Part shown: positions 5,008 to 16,141 of the stretch, piece after piece | How positions within the stretch are numbered: the stretch's first letter is position 1 | Layout: the number at the start of each line of letters is the position of its first letter | Source of the DNA: Actinomycetota bacterium | GTDB lineage: Bacteria > Actinomycetota > Actinomycetes > Mycobacteriales > Mycobacteriaceae | Direction: 5' to 3' | NCBI GenBank assembly: GCA_018268465.1 | Contig: JAFDWN010000062.1 | Coordinates: forward strand, 1-64,000 | Length of the DNA: 64,000 nucleotides | The notes under the pieces: model-generated | What the model was told of the DNA's origin: nothing | Seen by the model: only the letters and a program-made list of their open reading frames with translations | The model's database searches: none | Position numbers and translations under genes: made by a program

Positions 5008-5074
5008 GCGCGCAGCCCGACCACCGGGTCCAACGGCCCGTCGCTGCGTGATGCGACGGGCTAATCTCGGAGGC

Positions 5075-8000
5075 ATGGTGGGACCGAGATCGTTCCTCGA
5101 GTGGCCGGTGGTACGCCAGTTTCGTTCCGGCGACGTATTCGGCCGCGGACCGGCGGTGACGTCGCCGCGCACCCGTGCGGTGAGCCCGCGCACCGCGACC
5201 GCGGATCGCGTCGTGCAGAGTGTGTGCCCGTATTGCGCGGTGGGTTGCGGCCAGAAGGTCTACGTCAAGGACGAGAAGGTCGTACAGATCGAGGGCGACC
5301 CCGACTCGCCCATCTCCAGGGGCCGGCTGTGTCCGAAGGGTTCGGCCAGTGAGCAACTGGTGAATTCACCGGGCCGGCAGACCGAGATGCTCTACCGCGC
5401 GCCCTATTCCACCGAATGGCAGCGCATCGACGTCGACACCGCCCTCGATATGGTCGCCGAGCGGTTCATGGCGTCGCGGCGGCACACGTGGCAGGACATC
5501 GACAAGAAGGGCAACCTGCTGCGCCGCACCATGGGTATCGCCGCGCTCGGCGGGGCGACGCTGGACAACGAAGAAAACTATGTGATCAAGAAGCTCTTCA
5601 CGGCCGCGGGTGCGATCCAGATCGAGAACCAGGCCCGTATTTGACACTCCGCCACCGTTCCCGGTCTGGGAACCTCGTTCGGGCGCGGCGGCGCCACCCA
5701 GCCTCTGCAGGACATGGCCAACGCGGACTGCATCGTGATCCAGGGCTCCAACATGGCCGAGTGCCATCCGGTGGGTTTCCAGTGGGTCGAGGAGGCCAGG
5801 GCCCGTGGCGCCCGCGTGATCCACGTCGATCCGCGGTTCACCCGCACCTCGGCGGTGTGTGACAAGCACATCCCGATCCGGGCAGGCTCGGATGTGGTGC
5901 TGCTCGGCGCGCTCATCAACCATGTGCTGACCAACGACCTGTGGTTCCGCGATTACGTGGTCGCGTACACCAACGCCGCGACGCTGATCGACGAGAGCTA
6001 CCGCGACACCGAGGATCTCGGCGGCTTGTTCTCCGGATTCGACCCCAAGACGGGTCTGTACGACATGTCGTCCTGGGCATATGCCGAACAGAGCGGCGAA
6101 CCCGAGCACGGCGCGAGTCTGTCCGATCGGGCGGCGGGCGATACGCACGGCAGCGGGGGACCGCCACTGGAGCATGCCCACGTCCAACGCGACGACACCC
6201 TGCAGCACCCGCGGACGGTATTCCAGATCCTCAAGCGGCATTTCGCCCGCTACACCCCCGAGATGGTCCGCGACATGTGCGGTATCGGTCTGGCCGACTT
6301 CGACTATCTCGCCCGGTCGATCACCGAGAACTCCGGACGCGAGCGCACCACCTGTTTCGCCTACGCCGTCGGGTGGACCCAGCACACCCTGGGCGCCCAA
6401 TTCATCCGCACCGCAACGATTCTGCAGTTGCTGCTGGGCAACGTCGGCAGGCCGGGCAGCGGCATCATGGCGCTGCGCGGCCATGCGAGCATCCAGGGCT
6501 CCACCGACATCCCGACGTTGTTCAACCTGCTGCCCGGGTACCTGCCGATGCCCAAAGCCGGTGTCCACGACACGCTGCGCAGCTACCTGGACTTGGTGGG
6601 GCCCAAGCAGGAGAAGGGATTCTGGGCCGACGCCGACGCCTATCTGGTCAGCCTGCTCAAGGCGTGGTGGGGCGACGCGGCCCGGGCCGACAACGACTGG
6701 GCCTACGACTACCTGCCGCGCCTGACCGGTCCGCACGGGACCTATCAGACAGTCATGGCCATGCTCGACGACGAGGTGGAGGGCTACTTCCTGCTGGGCC
6801 AGAATCCTGCGGTGGGTTCGGCGCACGGCCGCATGCAGCGGCTCGGGATGGCACACCTGAAGTGGCTCGTGGTCCGCGACCTCAACCTCATCGAGTCAGC
6901 CACCTGGTGGAAGGACGGACCGGAGATCGCTTCCGGCGAGTTGCGCACCGAGGACATCGCGACGGAGGTGTTCTTCTTCCCCGCGGCGACCCACGTCGAG
7001 AAGGCCGGCTCCTTCACCCAGACTCAACGGCTGCTGCAGTGGCGGCACAAGGCTGTCGAACCGCCGGGCGACTGCCAGAGCGATCTGCAGTTCTTCATCG
7101 AACTGGGTAACCGGATCAGGGCCGCACTGGCCGGGTCGACCGATGAACGGGACCGGCCGCTGCTGGACCTGACGTGGGACTACCCCACCGACGAGCATGG
7201 CGAACCGATGCCGGAGGCGGTGCTCGCCGAGATCAACGGTTTCCACACCGCCGGACCCGGCGCGGGTGAGCCGTTGACGGCCTACACCGAGATGCGCGCC
7301 GACGGGTCCACCGCGGCCGGCTGCTGGATCTACACCGGGGTCTTCGCCACCGGCGTGAATCAGGCTGCCCGGCGGGTGCCCCACGGCGGCGCGGGGCCTA
7401 TGCAGGACCAGTGGGGCTGGGCATGGCCGGCCGACCGGCGGATCCTCTACAACCGGGCGTCGGCGGACCCCGACGGCAGGCCGTGGTCCGAGCGCAAACG
7501 ACTGATCTGGTGGGACGCGCAGCAGAGCCGCTGGGTCGGCGACGACGTGCCCGACTTCGTCGTCGACCGGGCCCCCGACACCCGCCCGGATCCGGCCCTG
7601 GGCGGTCCGGACGCGCTGGCGGGTGACGATCCGTTCGTCATGCAGGCCGACGGCAAGGGGTGGCTGTTCGCGCCGACGGGGATGCTCGACGGTCCGCTGC
7701 CCACTCACTACGAGCCGCAGGAGTCGCCGGTCGCCAACGCACTGTATGCCCAGCAGCAGAGCCCGTCGCGAGTCATCTTCCCGCGTAAGGACAATCTGTT
7801 CGCCCCCAGTGCCGGGGAGCCCGGCGTGGATGTCTACCCGTACGTGTTCACCACCTACCGCCTCACCGAACACCACACCGCGGGCGGGATGAGCCGCTGG
7901 CTGCCCTATCTGTCGGAGCTGCAACCGGAGATGTTCTGCGAGGTCTCACCCGAGCTGGCGGCCGAACGGGGCCTGGAGCCGTACGGCTGGGCCACCATCG

Positions 8001-8341
8001 TCTCCCCGCGGGCGGCGATCGAGGCCCGCGTGCTGGTGACCGAGCGGATGACGCCGGTGGTGGTGGGCGGTCACACCGTGCACCAGATCGGTCTGCCCTA
8101 CCACTGGGGTGTCGGCGGCGACGCGGTGGTCAGCGGCGACGCGGCCAACGATCTGCTGGGCGTGGCGCTCGACCCGAACGTTCAGATCCAGGAGTCCAAG
8201 GCCGGGTCCTGCGATATCCGGCCGGGCCGCCGACCGCAGGGCCAGGCGCTGCTGCGCCTGGTCGAGGAGTATCAATCCCGGGCGGGTGCGACGACCGAGA
8301 CGGACAACGCGCGAGTCACCGACCCGACGAAGGAGGGCTGA
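5075..8341 (+). CDS. fdhA: Formate dehydrogenase catalytic subunit, selenoprotein with in-frame UGA
   Basis: This molybdopterin oxidoreductase oxidises formate to CO2. The frame opens with a [4Fe-4S] site (CPYCAVGC, then RLCPKG) and continues as far as IENQARI. A TGA at 5642-5644 follows, and the same frame resumes with HSATVPGLGTSFGRGG. That is exactly where E. coli FdnG has selenocysteine (NQARV-Sec-HGPTV), so the TGA should be read as Sec190 of about 1088 residues. The downstream half holds normal cofactor motifs (AECHPVGFQWV, QNPAVGSAHGRMQR). No twin-arginine signal is seen, unlike FdnG. The start is uncertain between GTG 5048, ATG 5075 and GTG 5078 near GGAGG. The stop overlaps the fdhB ATG by one base. 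Confidence 0.93.
5642..5673 (+). promoter_or_regulatory. Selenocysteine codon and SECIS hairpin in fdhA
   Basis: The TGA codon is followed after 12 nt by a perfect 6-bp stem, GTTCCC pairing with GGGAAC, closed by the pentaloop GGTCT. In E. coli fdhF the SelB-binding apical loop is also GGUCU at similar distance from UGA, so this is a bacterial SECIS element read directly from sequence. It must bind the SelB elongation factor encoded 9 kb downstream to deliver Sec-tRNA. A lower stem between flanking bases is possible but was not folded computationally. Confidence 0.88.
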
Positions 8342-9345
8342 TGGGCCAACTGGCCGGACCAACCGATCCGACCGCCGACGCGCGTTGGCGGGATCCCCGC
8401 CCGCGCAAGGGGTTCTTCACCGACACGTCGATCTGCATCGGCTGCAAGGCGTGCGAGGTGGCCTGCAAGGAGTGGAACCGCAATCCGCTGGACGGCAACC
8501 TCGAATTGCTGGGGTCTTCGTACGACAACACCGGCGAACTGGGTGCCAGCACCTGGCGTCATGTCGCGTTCATCGAGCAGGGGCGCGACCGTATTGAGGA
8601 GGCGCGGGGATCCGGCCGGGCCCTCATCGACCTGGGTATGCCCGCGGTCGCGGGTTCGTCCGGCCCGGCGGAGGCCGCGCCGGATCGCCATCCGGGACCC
8701 GACACCCCGGAGTTCCGCTGGCTGATGGCATCGGATGTGTGCAAACACTGCACGCACGCCGGATGCCTCGATGTCTGCCCGACGGGCGCGCTGTTCCGCA
8801 CCGAGTTCGGCACCGTGGTGGTGCAGGCCGATGTGTGCAACGGGTGCGGCACTTGCGTGGCGGGTTGTCCGTTCGGTGTGGTCGAACGGCGCAGCGACGG
8901 CACGGTGCGAACCCCGACTGAGCGGGAAGGCCAAGGCGGGCAACATCATTCGGCGGACATTCGCAATGTCGGGGTCGCCCAGAAATGCACCCTGTGTTAC
9001 GACCGCCTGGTCGAAGACGAGACACCCGCGTGCGCGCAGACCTGCCCGACCACCTCGATCAAATTCGGTGACCACGACGACCTCGTGGTGCAGGCCCGCG
9101 AGCGGGTCGCGCAACTGCATGCCAGGGGGCTGACCGAGGCCCGGCTCTACGGCGCCAACGAACACGACGGCGTTGGCGGCACCGGGTCGATCTTCCTGCT
9201 GCTGGACGAGCCGGAGGTTTATGGGCTGCCGCCCGATCCGCGGGTGCCCACGGCCGACTTGATGCGGATGTTCACTCGCGCGGGGATGGCCGGCGCGGGC
9301 ATGCTCGCGGCCGCGGCAGTCGCCTTCTGGAGGAGGCCGCGATGA
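8341..9345 (+). CDS. fdhB: Formate dehydrogenase iron-sulfur subunit
   Basis: This 334-residue ferredoxin-like subunit passes electrons from FdhA to the membrane subunit. Four cysteine clusters are visible: CIGCKACEVAC (residues ~25-35), CKHCTHAGCLDVC, CNGCGTCVAGC, and CTLCYDRL with CAQTC. They match the four [4Fe-4S] clusters of FdnH/FdoH. The last 25 residues (AGMAGAGMLAAAAVAFWRRPR) form one hydrophobic anchor with a basic end, as in FdnH. The ATG overlaps the fdhA stop and is preceded by AGGAGGG. The stop codon lies within the first copy of a 32-bp repeat that separates it from fdhC. Confidence 0.93.
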   Translation: MGQLAGPTDPTADARWRDPRPRKGFFTDTSICIGCKACEVACKEWNRNPLDGNLELLGSSYDNTGELGASTWRHVAFIEQGRDRIEEARGSGRALIDLGMPAVAGSSGPAEAAPDRHPGPDTPEFRWLMASDVCKHCTHAGCLDVCPTGALFRTEFGTVVVQADVCNGCGTCVAGCPFGVVERRSDGTVRTPTEREGQGGQHHSADIRNVGVAQKCTLCYDRLVEDETPACAQTCPTTSIKFGDHDDLVVQARERVAQLHARGLTEARLYGANEHDGVGGTGSIFLLLDEPEVYGLPPDPRVPTADLMRMFTRAGMAGAGMLAAAAVAFWRRPR

Positions 9346-9405: not shown

Positions 9406-10494
9406 ATGAGCACCTCGGAGTACGACAGCCTGCGGCCGCCCGAGCCGGCCGGGCGCCGCCGTCGCGGGATCCGGCTCGGCAGGGTGCGCCGCGGCGCCGG
9501 GGACGGTTCGCGCGAGATGCCGATGGTGCCCGAGGCCGAGTTCACGACCTATTACGGGCGTCCGGTGGTCAAACCCGCGCCGTGGGGTCACGAGGTCGGC
9601 GCGTACCTGTTCCTCGGCGGCGTGGCAGGCGGTTCGGGTCTGCTGGCGGCGGGCGCGCAGCTCACCGGCCGTGCCGCGCTGCGCCGCAACGCCCGGCTCG
9701 CGGCGCTGGTGGCCGCGATCCTCAGTGCCGCCGCGCTGGTCAGGGATCTGGGCAGGCCGGAACGTTTCCTCAACATGCTGCGCACGATCAAGCTGACCTC
9801 GCCGATGAGCCTGGGCTCCTGGATCCTCAGCGCATTCAGCGCCGGGATCTCGGTGGCGGCGGCGTCGGAGGTGGACCGGATGACGGGCGAGCGATTGCCG
9901 CTGGGTCCGCTGCGCCCGGTGCTGCGGGCGGTGGAAGGACCCGCCGGACTGGAGGCCGCGGTATTCGCCGCGCCGCTGGCCGTCTACACCGCGGTACTTC
10001 TCGCCGACACCGCCACGCCGACCTGGAACGCGGCGCACGAGGATCTGCCGTTCGTGTTCGTCAGCTCGGCGAGCCTCGCGTCGGCGGGGCTGGCCATGGT
10101 CACGACACCGGTCGCCCAGACCGGTCCGGCGCGGCGCCTTGCCGTCCTCGGCGCCATCGGGGACGTCGTGGCGATGCGGCTCATGGAGCGCCGGATGGAT
10201 CCCGTCGCCGCCGAGCCGTTGCATCACGGCAATCCGGGCCGGATGCTGCGGTGGAGTGAACGGCTGGTGGTCGCCGGCGGCCTCGGCGCCCTGTTCGGCG
10301 GGCATCGCCGCGGTGTCGCGGTGGTTTCCGGGCTGGCGCTTATGGCGGCGTCGGCGCTGACCCGGTTCGGTGTGTTCGAGGCGGGATTGGAGTCCGCCCG
10401 CGACCCTCGGTACACCATCGAGCCGCAGAAACGCAGACTGGCGGCCCGGCGCGCGGCCGGTGTCACCGGCGATTCGATCACCACCGCCGGCTGA
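9406..10494 (+). CDS. fdhC: Formate dehydrogenase membrane subunit, NrfD/polysulfide reductase family
   Basis: The 362-residue product begins with about 55 polar residues ending in TYYGRPVVKPAPWGHEVG. Several hydrophobic helices follow, for example AYLFLGGVAGGSGLLAAGAQ, LAALVAAILSAAALV, and others towards residue 320. This fits NrfD-type quinone-interacting membrane anchors, not the cytochrome b type of E. coli FdnI, because no paired haem-ligand histidines are evident. It would pass formate-derived electrons to menaquinone. The ATG is embedded in the end of the 32-bp repeat array, so its ribosome site is within the repeat. The gene ends the fdh operon. Confidence 0.85.
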   Translation: MSTSEYDSLRPPEPAGRRRRGIRLGRVRRGAGDGSREMPMVPEAEFTTYYGRPVVKPAPWGHEVGAYLFLGGVAGGSGLLAAGAQLTGRAALRRNARLAALVAAILSAAALVRDLGRPERFLNMLRTIKLTSPMSLGSWILSAFSAGISVAAASEVDRMTGERLPLGPLRPVLRAVEGPAGLEAAVFAAPLAVYTAVLLADTATPTWNAAHEDLPFVFVSSASLASAGLAMVTTPVAQTGPARRLAVLGAIGDVVAMRLMERRMDPVAAEPLHHGNPGRMLRWSERLVVAGGLGALFGGHRRGVAVVSGLALMAASALTRFGVFEAGLESARDPRYTIEPQKRRLAARRAAGVTGDSITTAG

Positions 10495-10601: not shown

Positions 10602-11591
10602 TCAGCGCACCCGGATACCCGGCTGCGCGGTGGTGTGCCCGATGACGGGATGGCCGGGCAGTTCGCCGACCACGAGCAACCCTCCGGAGGTCTGCGCGTC
10701 GGCCAGCAGCAGCTGGTCGCCCTCGGTGACGCCGGGGCCGCACGACAGGTGCGGACGCACCCAGTCCAGGTTGCGCCGGGTGCCACCGGAGACGAAACCG
10801 TCGCGCAGCGCGTCGAGCGATGCCGGGATGACGGGTACGGCGCTGCGATCGATCACCGCGCCGATTCCGGAGGCCCGGCACATCTTGTACAGGTGGCCGA
10901 GCAGCCCGAAACCGGTGACGTCGGTGGCCGCCCGCACCCCGGCGGTCAACGCGGCCGCGGCGGCGTCACGGTTGAGGGCGGTCATGATCGCCACCGCCTC
11001 GGCGAACACCTCACCGGTCTGTTTGTGCCGGTTGTTGAGCAGCCCGGTGCCCAGCGGTTTGGTCAGTGTCAGCGGTAGCCGCGGGGCGGCGGCATCGTTG
11101 CGCAGCAGGCGGTCCGGGTCGGCGACGCCGGTCACCGCCATCCCGTACTTCGGTTCCGGATCGTCGATGGAGTGTCCGCCGATCACCGGGCAACCGGCCT
11201 GTGCGGCCACTGCCAGCCCGCCGCGCAGCACCTCGGTCATCATCTCCATCGGCAGTACGCCGCGCGGCCAGCCGACCAGGTTGATCGCGATGACGGGACG
11301 CCCGCCCATCGCGTAGATGTCCGACAGGGCGTTGGCCGCGGCGATGCGGCCCCAGTCGTAGGGATCGTCGACGACGGGGGTGAAGAAGTCGGCCGTGGAC
11401 AGCACGGCCAGATCGCCGACCCGCACGGCGGCCGCGTCGTCGCCGTCGTCGAGCCCGACCAGCACATGCTCGCCCGACTGGCCCGTGAGTCCGCGCACCG
11501 CGTCCTCGAGCTCACCCGGCGGGATCTTGCATGCGCAGCCGCCGCCGTGGGCGTATCCGGTCAGCCGGGCCGCGGGCGATGTCGCGCTCAC
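10602..11591 (-). CDS. selD: Selenide, water dikinase SelD
   Basis: SelD makes selenophosphate from selenide and ATP, the selenium donor for SelA. The 329-residue product has the glycine-rich active site GGGCACKIPPG (Cys19, Cys21, Lys22), so the catalytic position is cysteine and not selenocysteine. AIRS-type segments follow: VLVGLDDGDDAAAVRVGD, FFTPVVDDPYDWGRIAAANA with SDIYAMGG, GGHSIDDPEPKYG and DVTGFGLLGH. The GTG start was chosen because it lies shortly before the conserved region; the frame extends 30 codons upstream without family similarity. It is divergent from rtcB (71 bp apart) and convergent with fdhC. Confidence 0.95.
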   Translation of the reverse strand: MSATSPAARLTGYAHGGGCACKIPPGELEDAVRGLTGQSGEHVLVGLDDGDDAAAVRVGDLAVLSTADFFTPVVDDPYDWGRIAAANALSDIYAMGGRPVIAINLVGWPRGVLPMEMMTEVLRGGLAVAAQAGCPVIGGHSIDDPEPKYGMAVTGVADPDRLLRNDAAAPRLPLTLTKPLGTGLLNNRHKQTGEVFAEAVAIMTALNRDAAAAALTAGVRAATDVTGFGLLGHLYKMCRASGIGAVIDRSAVPVIPASLDALRDGFVSGGTRRNLDWVRPHLSCGPGVTEGDQLLLADAQTSGGLLVVGELPGHPVIGHTTAQPGIRVR

Positions 11592-11662
11592 CTCACGAGC
11601 GTAGGCCCGGCCCGCACCGGAATTCGATTGACCGCGGCGACCGGCACGCCGACGATCGTCCG

Positions 11663-12847
11663 ATGCCCGAGAAGCTCGCACCGAAGCTCATCAACTTCGC
11701 CGGCGAGGTCGACGAACTGACCATCCGGCAGGCGCGGGAGACCGCGTCCATGCCCTTCGTCCACCCGCATGTCGCATTGATGCCCGACGCGCACTACGGC
11801 AAGGGCTCCAGCGTCGGAACCGTCATCCCCACCATCGGCGCCGTCATCCCCGCCGCTGTCGGCGTCGATATCGGCTGCGGTATGCAGGCAGCCCGAACCG
11901 TCTATACGGCAAGTGATTTCGCGGACCGAGGCGCGCTGTCCGAGCTGCGTGCGTCGCTGGAATCCCTGATCCCCATGTCGCCGGGCAACTACAACGCCAC
12001 CCTGACGCGGTTCGATTTCAGCGCACGGCGCATCGCCGGGCTGGAGTCGCAGGCCGGCGAGGCCGGTGTCGACCTGTCGCACAGCCCGAAGTGGCGCGAG
12101 CAACTCGGGTCGCTGGGCGGTGGGAACCATTTCCTGGAACTGTGCCTCGACGAGCAGGACCGGGTGTGGATGTTCCTGCACTCCGGGTCCCGCGGCGTCG
12201 GCAACAAGATCGCCCAACGACATATCAGGACCGCCCAGCGGCTGTGCCAGCAGTGGTGGATCGAATTGCCCAACCCCGACCTGGCCTACCTCCCGCAAGA
12301 CACTCCGGAGTTCGGCGAGTATCTGCGTGACCTGTCGTGGGCGCAGCGCTTCGCCTACGAGAACCGTGAGGAGATGCTCGACCGGTTCCGGCTCGCGCTG
12401 GCCCGTCACATGGGTGGCGACCCGGACAACATCGAGGTGGACCGTGTTGGCTGCCACCACAATTACACGAAGCGTGAACACCACGGCGGTCGGGATGTGT
12501 GGCTGACCCGCAAGGGTGCGATCGACGCGCACGAGGGTGTGATGGGCCTGATCCCCGGCTCGATGGGCACCCGCTCGTATGTGGTGCGCGGCAAGGGTTC
12601 GGCGCTGGGGCTGTGCTCCGCGCCGCACGGCGCGGGCAGGCGCTACTCCCGCACCAAGGCCCGTCAGCTGTTCACGGCCGGGGATCTCGCGGCCCGCATG
12701 GTCGGTATCGAATACCGGCACGGCGAGGCCTGGGTCGACGAGATCCCCGACGCGTACAAGCCGGTGGAGCAGGTGATCGCCGACGCGGCGCCGCTCATCG
12801 AGGTCGTCCACGAACTGCGCCAGATCCTCAACTGCAAGGGCGAATGA
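11663..12847 (+). CDS. rtcB: RNA ligase RtcB
   Basis: RtcB joins RNA 2',3'-cyclic phosphate or 3'-phosphate ends to 5'-OH ends using GTP and Mn2+. The 394-residue product has the metal-binding Cys in VDIGCGMQ, GGGNHFLEL, HSGSRGVGNK, the histidine cluster HHNYTKREHHGG, and SAPHGAGRRYSR with the His that is guanylylated in E. coli RtcB. The ATG used begins the conserved PEKLAPKLINFAGE. It is placed between selD and the tRNA-Sec gene, 33 bp upstream of the tRNA and on the same strand, so co-transcription with the tRNA is possible. A functional link to selenocysteine is not established; it could equally be a passenger. Confidence 0.93.
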   Translation: MPEKLAPKLINFAGEVDELTIRQARETASMPFVHPHVALMPDAHYGKGSSVGTVIPTIGAVIPAAVGVDIGCGMQAARTVYTASDFADRGALSELRASLESLIPMSPGNYNATLTRFDFSARRIAGLESQAGEAGVDLSHSPKWREQLGSLGGGNHFLELCLDEQDRVWMFLHSGSRGVGNKIAQRHIRTAQRLCQQWWIELPNPDLAYLPQDTPEFGEYLRDLSWAQRFAYENREEMLDRFRLALARHMGGDPDNIEVDRVGCHHNYTKREHHGGRDVWLTRKGAIDAHEGVMGLIPGSMGTRSYVVRGKGSALGLCSAPHGAGRRYSRTKARQLFTAGDLAARMVGIEYRHGEAWVDEIPDAYKPVEQVIADAAPLIEVVHELRQILNCKGE

Positions 12848-12880: not shown

Positions 12881-12976
12881 GGAGGCGTTTGGGTTCCTGG
12901 TGGTCCCCCCGGTCTTCAAAACCGGTGAGGTCGAGTAGCTCGGCCTGGCGGGTTCGATTCCCGTCCGCCTCCGCCA
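12881..12976 (+). tRNA. selC: tRNA-Sec (anticodon TCA)
   Basis: The acceptor GGAGGCG pairs with CGCCTCC, followed by discriminator G and an encoded CCA. The anticodon stem CCGGT/ACCGG carries the loop CTTCAAA, giving anticodon TCA at 12916-12918, which reads UGA. An unusually long variable arm is formed by AGGTCGAG and CTCGGCCT, 8 bp with one G-T wobble. The T loop is TTCGATT. The large variable arm, discriminator G and TCA anticodon identify tRNA-Sec. I see seven acceptor pairs and a T-C mismatch where an eighth would be. It lies directly upstream of selA. Confidence 0.96.
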
Positions 12977-13013
12977 GTAGCCGGCCGTGCCGGGGGAGGA
13001 GGGCCCACCGACG

Positions 13014-14333
13014 GTGACCGATGTCGACCCGCGCCGCCTGATCCCGCGCACCGACGAGTTGCTCGGGCTGCCGGCGGTGGCCCGCGCGCGCACCCGGCTG
13101 GGTGAGCATGTCGTGCGCGCGGTGGTGCGCGAGGTGCAGGAGCGTGCCCGAACCGGCGACCTGCCGCCCGAGCGGGTCACTGAGGCGGTGGCCGCGGCGC
13201 TGGCCGCCCGCTCGGCGACGACGTTGCGCCCGGTCCTCAATGCCACCGGCGTCGTCGTGCACACCAACCTGGGGCGGGCGCCGCTGTCGGCCGCGGCGGT
13301 CGATGCGCTGCTCGCGGCCAGTGGCTACGTCGACGTGGAGCTGGACCTGGCCACCGGAACCCGGTCGAAGCGCGGCGTGGCCGCCCGCGCCGCGTTGCTG
13401 GCGGCATGCCCCGCCGCGCAGGATGCGCTCGTGGTCAACAACGGTGCGGCCGCGCTCGTCCTGGCCACCACCGCGCTGGCCGCCGGCCGGGAGGTGGTGG
13501 TCAGCCGGGGGGAGCTGATCGAGATCGGCGCCGGGTTCCGGTTACCCGACCTCATCGCGTCCACCGGTGCGCGACTGCGGGAGGTGGGCACCACCAACCG
13601 CACCCACTTGCGCGACTACGCCGACGCCATGGGCCCGCAGACCGGGTGCGTGCTCAAGGTGCATCCGAGTAACTTCCGCGTCGAGGGGTTCACCGCCGCA
13701 GTGGGGCTGCCCGAACTGCGGGAGCTGACGAGGTCCCACGGTGTGCCGCTGCTCAACGATCTGGGCAGTGGGCTGCTGGCACCCGATCTCCTGCTGCCCG
13801 ACGAACCCGACGCCGCCACGGCCCTGGCCGCCGGGGCCGACATCGTCACCGCGAGCGGCGACAAACTGCTCGGCGGGCCCCAGGCCGGGGTGGTGCTGGG
13901 CAGTGCCGAGATGGTGGCCCGGATGGCCCGTCATCCCCTGGCGCGCGCCGTACGCGCCGACAAGCTGACGCTGGCGGCGCTGGAGGCGACGCTGTGCGCC
14001 GGACCGCCTCCTGTCATGCGGTTTCTGCACGCCGACTCCGGCCGGCTACGGGAGCGCGCCGAACGTCTCGCCGGCGCGGTCGGGGCATCCGTCGTGCCGC
14101 ATGACGGTCGGGTCGGCGGTGGCGGCGCACCCGGTGTGCCACTGCAGGGTTGGGCGGTGCGGTTGCCCGAGGCCGCCGCCGCGCTGCTGCGCGCCGGTGA
14201 TCCGGTGGTGTTGCCGCGGGTCCATGACGGCGCTTGTCTGCTCGACGTGCGTTGTGTGCCCGACGCCGACGATGAGCGGTTGCTGGGTGCCGTGCGGGCC
14301 GCGTTGGGGGCGTTGAACGGCGGGGACCGCTGA
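13014..14333 (+). CDS. selA: L-seryl-tRNA(Sec) selenium transferase SelA
   Basis: SelA is a PLP enzyme that converts Ser-tRNA(Sec) to Sec-tRNA(Sec) using selenophosphate. The 439-residue product has the N-terminal region RLIPRTDELLGLPAV that orients the tRNA, LNATGVVVHTNLGRAPL, NNGAAALVLATTALA, and the PLP lysine in SGDKLLGGPQAG near residue 285. The GTG start follows a strong GGAGGAGGG with good spacing; an earlier GTG at 12987 would add nine residues and sits upstream of that ribosome site. It lies 37 bp after tRNA-Sec and 23 bp before selB, so selC, selA and selB form one unit. Confidence 0.95.
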   Translation: MTDVDPRRLIPRTDELLGLPAVARARTRLGEHVVRAVVREVQERARTGDLPPERVTEAVAAALAARSATTLRPVLNATGVVVHTNLGRAPLSAAAVDALLAASGYVDVELDLATGTRSKRGVAARAALLAACPAAQDALVVNNGAAALVLATTALAAGREVVVSRGELIEIGAGFRLPDLIASTGARLREVGTTNRTHLRDYADAMGPQTGCVLKVHPSNFRVEGFTAAVGLPELRELTRSHGVPLLNDLGSGLLAPDLLLPDEPDAATALAAGADIVTASGDKLLGGPQAGVVLGSAEMVARMARHPLARAVRADKLTLAALEATLCAGPPPVMRFLHADSGRLRERAERLAGAVGASVVPHDGRVGGGGAPGVPLQGWAVRLPEAAAALLRAGDPVVLPRVHDGACLLDVRCVPDADDERLLGAVRAALGALNGGDR

Positions 14334-14356: not shown

Positions 14357-16141
14357 GTGGTCGCCACGGCGGGTCACGTCGACCACGGCAAGAGCACGCT
14401 CATCCGTGCGCTGACGGGGATGGAGCCCGACCGGTGGGAGGAGGAGCGCCGCCGCGGACTCACCATCGACCTCGGATTCGCCTGGACCACACTGCCGTCG
14501 GGTCGCGAGGTGGCGTTCGTCGACGTGCCGGGGCACCAGCGTTTCCTGGGCAACACCCTGGCCGGGCTGGGTCCGGCTCCGGTGGTGTGCTTCGTGGTGG
14601 CCGCCGACGAGGGCTGGCAGGCACAGTCCGGCGACCACCGGGATGCGGTGGCGGCGCTGGGTATTCGGCACGGGCTGGTGGTGATCAGCCGGGCCGACCG
14701 GGCGCCGGACCGGGCCGCCGGCGTGCTCGCGCAGGCCCGCGCGGAACTGGCCGAGACAGGTCTGCGCGACGCGCCCGCCGTCGTCGTGTCGGCGGTGGCC
14801 GGCACCGGGATCGGTGAGTTGCGCACCGCGCTCGACGGGGTGCTGGCGCGGCTGCCCGAGCCGGCGACCACTGCGCGGTTGCGGCTGTGGGTGGATCGTT
14901 CGTTCACCATCACGGGGGCGGGCACCGTGGTCACCGGAACCCTGGTGGCCGGCACGCTGGCCCGCGGCGACCGGCTGCACCTGCTGGGCGCCGCGCTGGA
15001 GCGGTCCGTCGTCGCGCGTGGGCTGCAGAGTCGCGGACAGCCCTATCCGGCGCTGCCGCCGGTGGCGCGGGTGGCGCTCAACCTGAGAGGGGTGCCGCAC
15101 GACGAGGTGCGCCGCGGTGACGCTCTGGTCACCCCGGATGCGTGGCCGAGCACCAGGACGCTGGACGTGCGGCGCACCACCGGCGGTGCGTTGACCGAGG
15201 CCCCGTCGCAGCTCGTCGTGCACGTCGGAACCGCGGCGGTGCCGGTCTGGCTGCGCCCGTTCGACGACGATCATGGGCGGTTGCGCCTCGGCCGACGGCT
15301 GCCGTTGGTGCTGGGCGACCGGCTGGTGCTGCGCGACCCCGGCAGTCGGCGCGTGCTGGGCGGTGCCGTGGTCCTCGACGCGGATCCGCCCGCGCTGCGG
15401 CGGCGCGGGGACAGCGCGCGCCGCGCGGCCGTGCTCTGCGGGCTGGATCCGCGCGGCGACGTGGCGGCCGAGGTCGCCCGCCGGGGCGTCGTCGAGGAGC
15501 GCCATCTGCGTCTGCTCGGTCTGGTGCTGCCGGATGCTGCGCCGCCCGACGGGGTGCGGGTGCTCGGCGGCTGGTGGGTGCATGACCCGACGTACGAGGC
15601 CTGGCGGCAACGGCTGGACGCTGCGGTACGGGCGCTGCATGAGCGAGATCCGTTGGCCGCGGGGCTGTCCCGTGGCGCAGCCCGTGACCTGCTCGCACTG
15701 CCCGACGAGTCGCTGCTCGACGCCGTAGTCCGCGACGCGGGGCTCGAACAGGTGGGCGGCCACATCCGGGTCGGCGATGCGGACGCGGGCCTCGGGCCTG
15801 CCGAATCCGCGGTGGCCGAGTTGGAGGCCCGCCTGCGGGACGAACCGTTCCGCGCGCCGGAGGCCCATGAGCTGACGGCGCTGCGCCTCGGCGCCCGTGA
15901 ACTCGCGGCGGCCGAGCGCGCGGGCCGGGTGTTGCGCCTTCGCGACGGTGTGGTGTTGCTGCCGACGGGGCCCGCGCTGGCGATGCGGGAACTGGCCCGC
16001 CTCGAGCAGCCCTTCACCACCAGCCAGGCGCGTCAGGCGCTCGGTACGACGCGGCGGGTTGCGATCCCGCTGCTGGAACATCTCGACGCCAAGGGCTGGA
16101 CCCGGCGCCTGGACGCGGGTCACCGCACGGTCGTGAGGTGA
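14357..16141 (+). CDS. selB: Selenocysteine-specific elongation factor SelB
   Basis: SelB is a GTPase that brings Sec-tRNA to UGA codons marked by a SECIS hairpin. The 594-residue product has the P-loop GHVDHGKST, EEERRRGLTIDLGFAW (switch region) and DVPGHQRF; SRAD stands at the G4 position, where EF-Tu has NKxD. EF-Tu-like beta barrels follow, and the C-terminal third (about 370-594) resembles the winged-helix repeats that bind SECIS RNA. Length is close to E. coli SelB (614). The start is uncertain: the only in-frame candidate is a GTG three codons before AGHVDHGK, and a weak upstream start cannot be excluded. Its only visible target in the window is fdhA. Confidence 0.95.
   Translation: MVATAGHVDHGKSTLIRALTGMEPDRWEEERRRGLTIDLGFAWTTLPSGREVAFVDVPGHQRFLGNTLAGLGPAPVVCFVVAADEGWQAQSGDHRDAVAALGIRHGLVVISRADRAPDRAAGVLAQARAELAETGLRDAPAVVVSAVAGTGIGELRTALDGVLARLPEPATTARLRLWVDRSFTITGAGTVVTGTLVAGTLARGDRLHLLGAALERSVVARGLQSRGQPYPALPPVARVALNLRGVPHDEVRRGDALVTPDAWPSTRTLDVRRTTGGALTEAPSQLVVHVGTAAVPVWLRPFDDDHGRLRLGRRLPLVLGDRLVLRDPGSRRVLGGAVVLDADPPALRRRGDSARRAAVLCGLDPRGDVAAEVARRGVVEERHLRLLGLVLPDAAPPDGVRVLGGWWVHDPTYEAWRQRLDAAVRALHERDPLAAGLSRGAARDLLALPDESLLDAVVRDAGLEQVGGHIRVGDADAGLGPAESAVAELEARLRDEPFRAPEAHELTALRLGARELAAAERAGRVLRLRDGVVLLPTGPALAMRELARLEQPFTTSQARQALGTTRRVAIPLLEHLDAKGWTRRLDAGHRTVVR

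Follow-up and report, generated by a model that had tools for sequence, protein, structure and literature searches.

A predicted selenocysteine-containing formate dehydrogenase encoded beside its decoding machinery in a mycobacterial genome

Genes at the locus

The window, i.e. the whole stretch of 64,000 nucleotides that was analysed (contig JAFDWN010000062.1, Mycobacteriaceae), comes from a genome assembly of 6.9 Mb that is 99.87% complete and 5.86% contaminated. It carries fdhA, the gene of a formate dehydrogenase (FDH) alpha subunit with an in-frame UGA, followed by genes for two further subunits and for the selenocysteine (Sec) machinery (Table 1). The start codon of fdhA was taken to be ATG 5075; a GTG at 5048 is likewise open. 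We refer to the parts on the two sides of the TGA as the N piece (5075-5641) and the C piece (5645-8341).

Table 1. Coordinates of the features at the fdhA locus of the window.
Feature	Position	Strand	Basis or remark
fdhA, formate dehydrogenase alpha subunit	5075..8341	+	One frame; in-frame UGA (predicted Sec) is codon 190 from ATG 5075
UGA codon, predicted Sec at active-site ligand position	5642..5644	+	Alignments to solved FDHs and relatives
SECIS hairpin, GTTCCC-GGTCT-GGGAAC	5657..5673	+	Loop starts 18 nt past UGA
fdhB, 4Fe-4S beta subunit	8341..9345	+	TIGR01582 (FDH-beta) 160.4 bits, below the cut-off of 334.7; Fer4 domains
NrfD/PsrC-type membrane subunit, replacing an FdnI-type cytochrome b	9406..10494	+	PF03916, 63.7 bits
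selD, selenophosphate synthase	10602..11648 (start approximate)	-	TIGR00476, 380.6 bits (cut-off 125)
rtcB-family gene	11663-12847	+	PF01139, 381.8 bits; between selD and tRNA-Sec
tRNA-Sec (selC), anticodon TCA	12881..12976	+	ARAGORN; Rfam RF01852, 76.4 bits (cut-off 47)
selA, L-seryl-tRNA(Sec) selenium transferase	12987..14333	+	TIGR00474, 427.8 bits (cut-off 267.9)
selB, Sec-specific elongation factor	14357..16141	+	TIGR00475, 271.4 bits (cut-off 242.25)

The tRNA-Sec gene, selA, selB and selD all lie within 8 kb downstream of fdhA. Since selA, selB, selC and selD all score over their curated cut-offs, the Sec-decoding trait is complete in the window. Inspection by eye found a hydrophobic stretch at the C terminus of FdhB and showed SelD to be of the Cys form, with the motif GGGCACK. 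The C-terminal winged helix of SelB matches PF09107 (SelB-wing_3) with 56.7 bits.

Position of the UGA in the formate dehydrogenase

The two pieces of fdhA match the NCBIfam model NF041513 (formate_DH_Act) at profile positions 3-185 and 187-1067, respectively, which leaves exactly one profile residue for the TGA. The cut-off of this model (1400 bits) is exceeded by the C piece alone (1582.5 bits) and by the read-through protein (1934.5 bits, one TGA). With TIGR01553, the model of the E. coli-type FDH-N (cut-off 814.2 bits), the N and C pieces scored apart gave 136.9 and 740.3 bits. At the N terminus no RR was seen by eye after ATG 5075; the start at GTG 5048 adds one RR, with no hydrophobic stretch behind it.

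The N and C pieces were also searched separately against solved FDH structures. The N piece ends and the C piece starts at residues 191 and 193 of D. vulgaris FdhA (6sdr), 195 and 197 of E. coli FdnG (1kqf) and 157 and 159 of D. gigas FDH (1h0h), which places the TGA at residues 192, 196 and 158, respectively. In FDH-H (1aa6) the C piece starts at 141, and the N piece aligned to 101 only. These are the Sec sites of the respective enzymes. The original prediction had placed the TGA exactly at the Sec site of FdnG, and the alignments agree with it. The codon after the UGA encodes His, and residue 278 of the C piece is an Arg aligned to FdnG Arg446; presumably both arginines have a catalytic role.

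The hairpin downstream of the UGA

The hairpin consists of two stem arms (5657-5662 and 5668-5673) around a loop at 5663-5667, with 12 nt between the TGA and the stem. A perfect 6-bp hairpin with this loop and this spacing had been predicted, and the prediction is right to the base. The loop had also been called E. coli-like, which is borne out by fdhF: its loop is GGTCT, that of fdnG is AGTCT, and each begins 18 nt after the TGA, as in the window. In drawings of the E. coli SECIS hairpins, one U of the stem is usually left unpaired (bulged). In the window the stem is fully paired, including the place that matches the bulged U. A U occupies this place in the window and in all of the 80 best relative loci described below (81 of 81) and could pair in most of them, the opposite base being A 31 times, G 47 times and U 3 times; this U is also the middle position of a conserved Val codon.

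The pattern of a TGA, 12 nt and six Watson-Crick pairs around GGTCT is found at one of the 1347 TGA trinucleotides on both strands of the window, and at three of them if any 5-nt loop is allowed. Among the 34,481 TGAs of the best 80 relative loci, 13 show the GGTCT form, all of them at the FDH site. The any-loop form restricted to Watson-Crick pairs occurs 21 times at the site and 14 times elsewhere, and when RGTYT loops and GU pairs are permitted the numbers are 76 and 1.

A fold of 5642-5690 had been proposed as a check. The folding energy of these 49 nt is no better than that of shuffled sequences (z +0.63; the fold is as good or better in 143 of 200 shuffles), so we dropped it as proof of the hairpin, and the support for the hairpin comes from its position, loop and conservation.

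When the genome was searched for further selenoproteins by the pattern of this signal, allowing up to 3 mismatches, the FDH site was the only place without mismatch. Two more places had 3 mismatches, and a reversed control pattern gave 5; a search of this kind would miss hairpins of different build. Another hairpin-like match, in one of the relative loci (L006), was dropped as its frames have nearby stops.

Conservation of the UGA and of the hairpin

The relatives used here are the best 80 of at least 595 matches found by searching genome contigs. As only the best matches were kept, the set is biased towards close relatives and is of little use for Cys forms. Among the fetched loci the closest FDHs are from Mycobacterium and Skermania. 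Together with the window the set comprises 81 sequences with 49 distinct 42-mers, and all 81 have TGA at the FDH site. All six hairpin pairs are formed in 77 of them and five in the remaining 4, with the loop types GGTCT (50), AGTTT (18) and AGTCT (13). Four further Sec forms, taken from genomes of the genus, keep six pairs as well, though one of them (L094) may duplicate L006.

The loop type differs between genera and also inside Gordonia and Kocuria. The loop falls on codons 7-8 past the UGA; an exchange between GGTCT and the AGT loops also exchanges Gly for Ser. The AGTTT loop is unlike both E. coli loops.

Codon 5 after the UGA is GTT in 77 of 81 sequences, yet GTT makes up 5.6% of the Val codons in the C pieces; GGC is never used at codon 9, yet it accounts for 55.2% of the Gly codons. 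Synonymous diversity along the C piece reaches its minimum in this region: among 522 scored windows of six codons, the five lowest begin at codons 1-5 after the UGA. The wobble pair between codons 5 and 9 is T-A in 67, T-G in 9, C-G in 4 and T-T in 1 of the 81 sequences; in other words, all four sequences with GTC at codon 5 have G opposite.

Covariation was evaluated on a set of 20 sequences, i.e. 18 of the best 80 loci picked for variety, the window and fdnG. Here 96.7% of the cells pair, as compared to at most 67.5% in slid controls. Two-sided change is found at three of the six stem pairs, for two of them solely via the E. coli row; among the actinobacterial sequences it occurs at one pair only. 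Judged from these alignments, the stem is upheld by covariation and by synonymous constraint, the constraint being strong.

Co-occurrence with tRNA-Sec and the Cys versions

The distribution of the system was investigated in a sample of 148 genomes of the window's genus, the window genome included. A TGA-containing FDH of the NF041513 family is present in 68 of them, and these together with 4 genomes that have a Cys form only are all the 72 genomes over the FDH cut-off. A tRNA-Sec over the cut-off is found in 67 of the 68 genomes with a TGA-FDH, and a TGA-FDH in all 67 genomes with a tRNA-Sec (Fisher test, uncorrected for kinship); a tRNA-Sec without a TGA-FDH was seen in none of the 148. The single exception, a TGA-FDH without a tRNA-Sec over the cut-off (L092), is in a draft genome (G086) where the FDH is on a 6.5 kb contig. 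One genome (G089) was left out of the Sec/Cys count, as its FDH is limited to two short fragments and no tRNA-Sec exceeds the cut-off. In another genome (G134) a further tRNA-Sec match (C4:406636-406723; 55.9 bits, over the cut-off) lies far from the one beside its FDH.

Five full-length FDHs without the stop (L087, L088, L089, L090 and L091) carry TGC or TGT. In these Cys versions the matching stretch pairs at only 3-4 of 6 positions and the loops are different, i.e. there is no hairpin. Four of the five sit in genomes without a tRNA-Sec over the cut-off. One genome (G138) has both a Cys copy without hairpin (L090) and a Sec copy (L093); the latter is divergent, with 63% identity to the C piece of the window, and has sel genes close by.

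The stem encodes Pro (CCC) in all 81 Sec forms, and the residue at this place is Val in all five Cys forms, which suggests that the hairpin dictates the residue. The 81 Sec and 5 Cys genes thus offer a natural experiment in which codons are constrained by an RNA signal. A tree was built from 38 proteins (C pieces from 28 of the best 80 loci, the window, FdnG and 8 genome loci). In it the five Cys forms are set apart by one branch (96/92), and L093 forms a long branch. The branch of FdnG is too long to root the tree, which therefore gives no direction of the change between Sec and Cys.

Gene order, rtcB and plasmid copies

Gene order was compared in 90 loci, i.e. the best 80 and 10 from genomes. 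A tRNA-Sec is present on 78 of the 90; in the best set it is present on 74 of 80, and the other six loci end at most 2.3 kb past the match. Of the 90 loci, 57 have the order fdhA-fdhB-nrfD-selD(opposite)-tRNA-Sec-selA-selB, which runs on one strand in 55 cases and on the other in 2. In 19 loci the sel genes instead precede fdhA.

The window has rtcB inside the cluster, but none of the 90 compared loci carries it, and we therefore rejected the idea that rtcB belongs to the conserved Sec machinery. An RtcB match is present in 40 of the 148 genomes of the genus. In the six of them whose coordinates were compared (G109, G087, G063, G045, G006 and G108), it is more than 100 kb from the tRNA-Sec or on a different contig. 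As it is absent from the 90 loci and unlinked in these six genomes, the rtcB of the window looks like a local arrival. Our literature search found no paper joining selenoprotein, actinobacteria, formate dehydrogenase and RtcB.

A search for plasmid matches gave 777 records; among the 12 listed, an FDH name stands under the match in five and none in four, while three are unannotated. The plasmid of Arthrobacter sp. YA7-1 (L109, 6434-16307 and beyond), typed as conjugative, carries a complete Sec-FDH cassette with a tRNA-Sec near a Tn3-family transposase. A second cassette with a tRNA-Sec is on a Tsukamurella plasmid (L110) typed as non-mobilizable. In both, the FDH is annotated as one CDS across the UGA, which is codon 189.

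In view of the shared gene order, the two plasmid copies and the patchy presence in the genus (68/148), we tentatively raise the possibility, which we regard as somewhat doubtful at present, that the genes from fdhA through fdhB, nrfD, selD, tRNA-Sec and selA to selB could be a self-contained mobile cassette that moves among actinobacteria on conjugative plasmids, and that the mycobacterial copies, including that of the window, could be arrivals. Were this so, the cassette would bring its host both the 21st amino acid and the enzyme that uses it. An earlier paper has inferred that the Sec trait was transferred between actinobacteria (PMC5029168). For plasmid-borne or conjugative Sec cassettes, the text covered by our literature search matched nothing but one Lactobacillus item. 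The plasmid copies make a conjugative spread of selenocysteine coding directly testable.

Interpretation of the UGA

fdhA is almost certainly an intact selenoprotein gene that encodes the alpha subunit of a membrane-linked FDH of the molybdopterin type, its UGA being read as Sec with the help of SelD, SelA, SelB and the hairpin. Sec insertion, as originally predicted, is supported because the UGA is at the active-site position, the machinery is adjacent, TGA is present in all 81 sequences and the hairpin is kept, one wobble pair covaries, synonymous change is constrained, a tRNA-Sec co-occurs with the gene and the Cys versions are without hairpin. By analogy with known relatives, SelD would provide selenophosphate, SelA would convert seryl-tRNA-Sec to selenocysteinyl-tRNA-Sec, and SelB would bring the latter to the ribosome. 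The winged-helix end of SelB is expected to bind the GGUCU hairpin 12 nt past the UGA, whereupon the UGA would be decoded as selenocysteine. In the enzyme the Sec would be a metal ligand, with the conserved His next to it and the Arg that matches FdnG Arg446 completing the active site, and electrons would pass from the FeS beta subunit via the NrfD-type membrane subunit to the quinone pool.

The TGA could also be a nonsense mutation or a sequencing error, which would make fdhA a pseudogene, and six-frame ORF calling does break the gene in two at this codon. However, the TGA is at the same codon in all of the best 80 relatives, the 898 codons past it are open with 74-86% protein identity to these 80 (of at least 595 matches), the hairpin is constrained and the co-occurrence with tRNA-Sec is tight. 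We rejected this explanation on conservation and consider its probability practically negligible. In the original prediction the split by automated callers was expected to lead easily to misannotation; the split itself is confirmed, but NF041513 is a curated model and both plasmid relatives are annotated as a single CDS. It is only slightly less far-fetched, and still very improbable, that the UGA is passed in another way, either by a near-cognate tRNA reading it as Trp or by a separate start downstream, and that the hairpin is incidental. Although ATG 5714 could open an ORF of 875 amino acids, its product would have neither the 4Fe-4S domain (PF04879, in the N piece) nor the active-site residue. 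Any such bypass is also hard to reconcile with the tRNA-Sec, SelA, SelB and SelD genes adjoining fdhA, and with the Cys versions: all five lack the hairpin, and the genomes of four of them have no tRNA-Sec over the cut-off. With Sec decoding as by far the preferred reading, fdhA is a clean textbook case, and annotators should keep it as one selenoprotein gene and not as a pseudogene.

Comparison with known systems

Few bacterial selenoproteins are as widespread as the FDH alpha subunit (PMC1794560, PMC5029168). Like the window, E. coli FDH-N (FdnGHI, 1kqf) has an alpha subunit that aligns with both pieces of fdhA, the UGA at the same residue and the same loop spacing. The two systems differ in the third gene, which encodes an FdnI-type cytochrome b gamma subunit in E. 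coli and a protein of the NrfD family PF03916 here. They also differ in the loop, which is GGTCT here and AGTCT in fdnG (the latter form is found in 13 of the 81 sequences), and possibly in the twin-arginine signal, of which no clear case was seen by eye in the alpha subunit of the window. Rhodococcus equi 103S has, like the window, an FdnG-like alpha subunit, an FeS beta subunit and a membrane subunit of the NrfD family (PMC13332983). The FDH of this strain was proposed to reduce quinone through NrfD, and the word selenocysteine is absent from the main text of that paper (PMC13332983).

Among actinobacteria, a prediction paper of 2005 has FDH in its table under Mycobacterium avium paratuberculosis (PMC1242214). 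Three Sec-FDHs, together with a SECIS search, were described in Actinomycetospora chiangmaiensis, where formate removal is selenium-dependent and FdhA1, SelA, SelB and SelD were seen by proteomics (PMC7176365). The FDH1 cluster of this species resembles the window in that the alpha, beta and gamma genes are clustered with selA and selB and that it has a Sec UGA and a SECIS; FdhA1 (1078 aa), FdhB1 (362) and FdhC1 (366) are near the window genes in size (PMC7176365). In the window selD is part of the cluster and rtcB stands between selD and tRNA-Sec, whereas the published listing of FDH1 is without selD (PMC7176365). The NF041513 model of actinobacterial Sec FDHs is matched by the window over nearly its full length. 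The prediction of a Sec-FDH in the window is therefore correct and well supported, yet unsurprising and already known in kind, as such enzymes have been published in actinobacteria (PMC7176365, PMC1242214), are covered by NF041513 and have plasmid relatives that are annotated as single CDSs.
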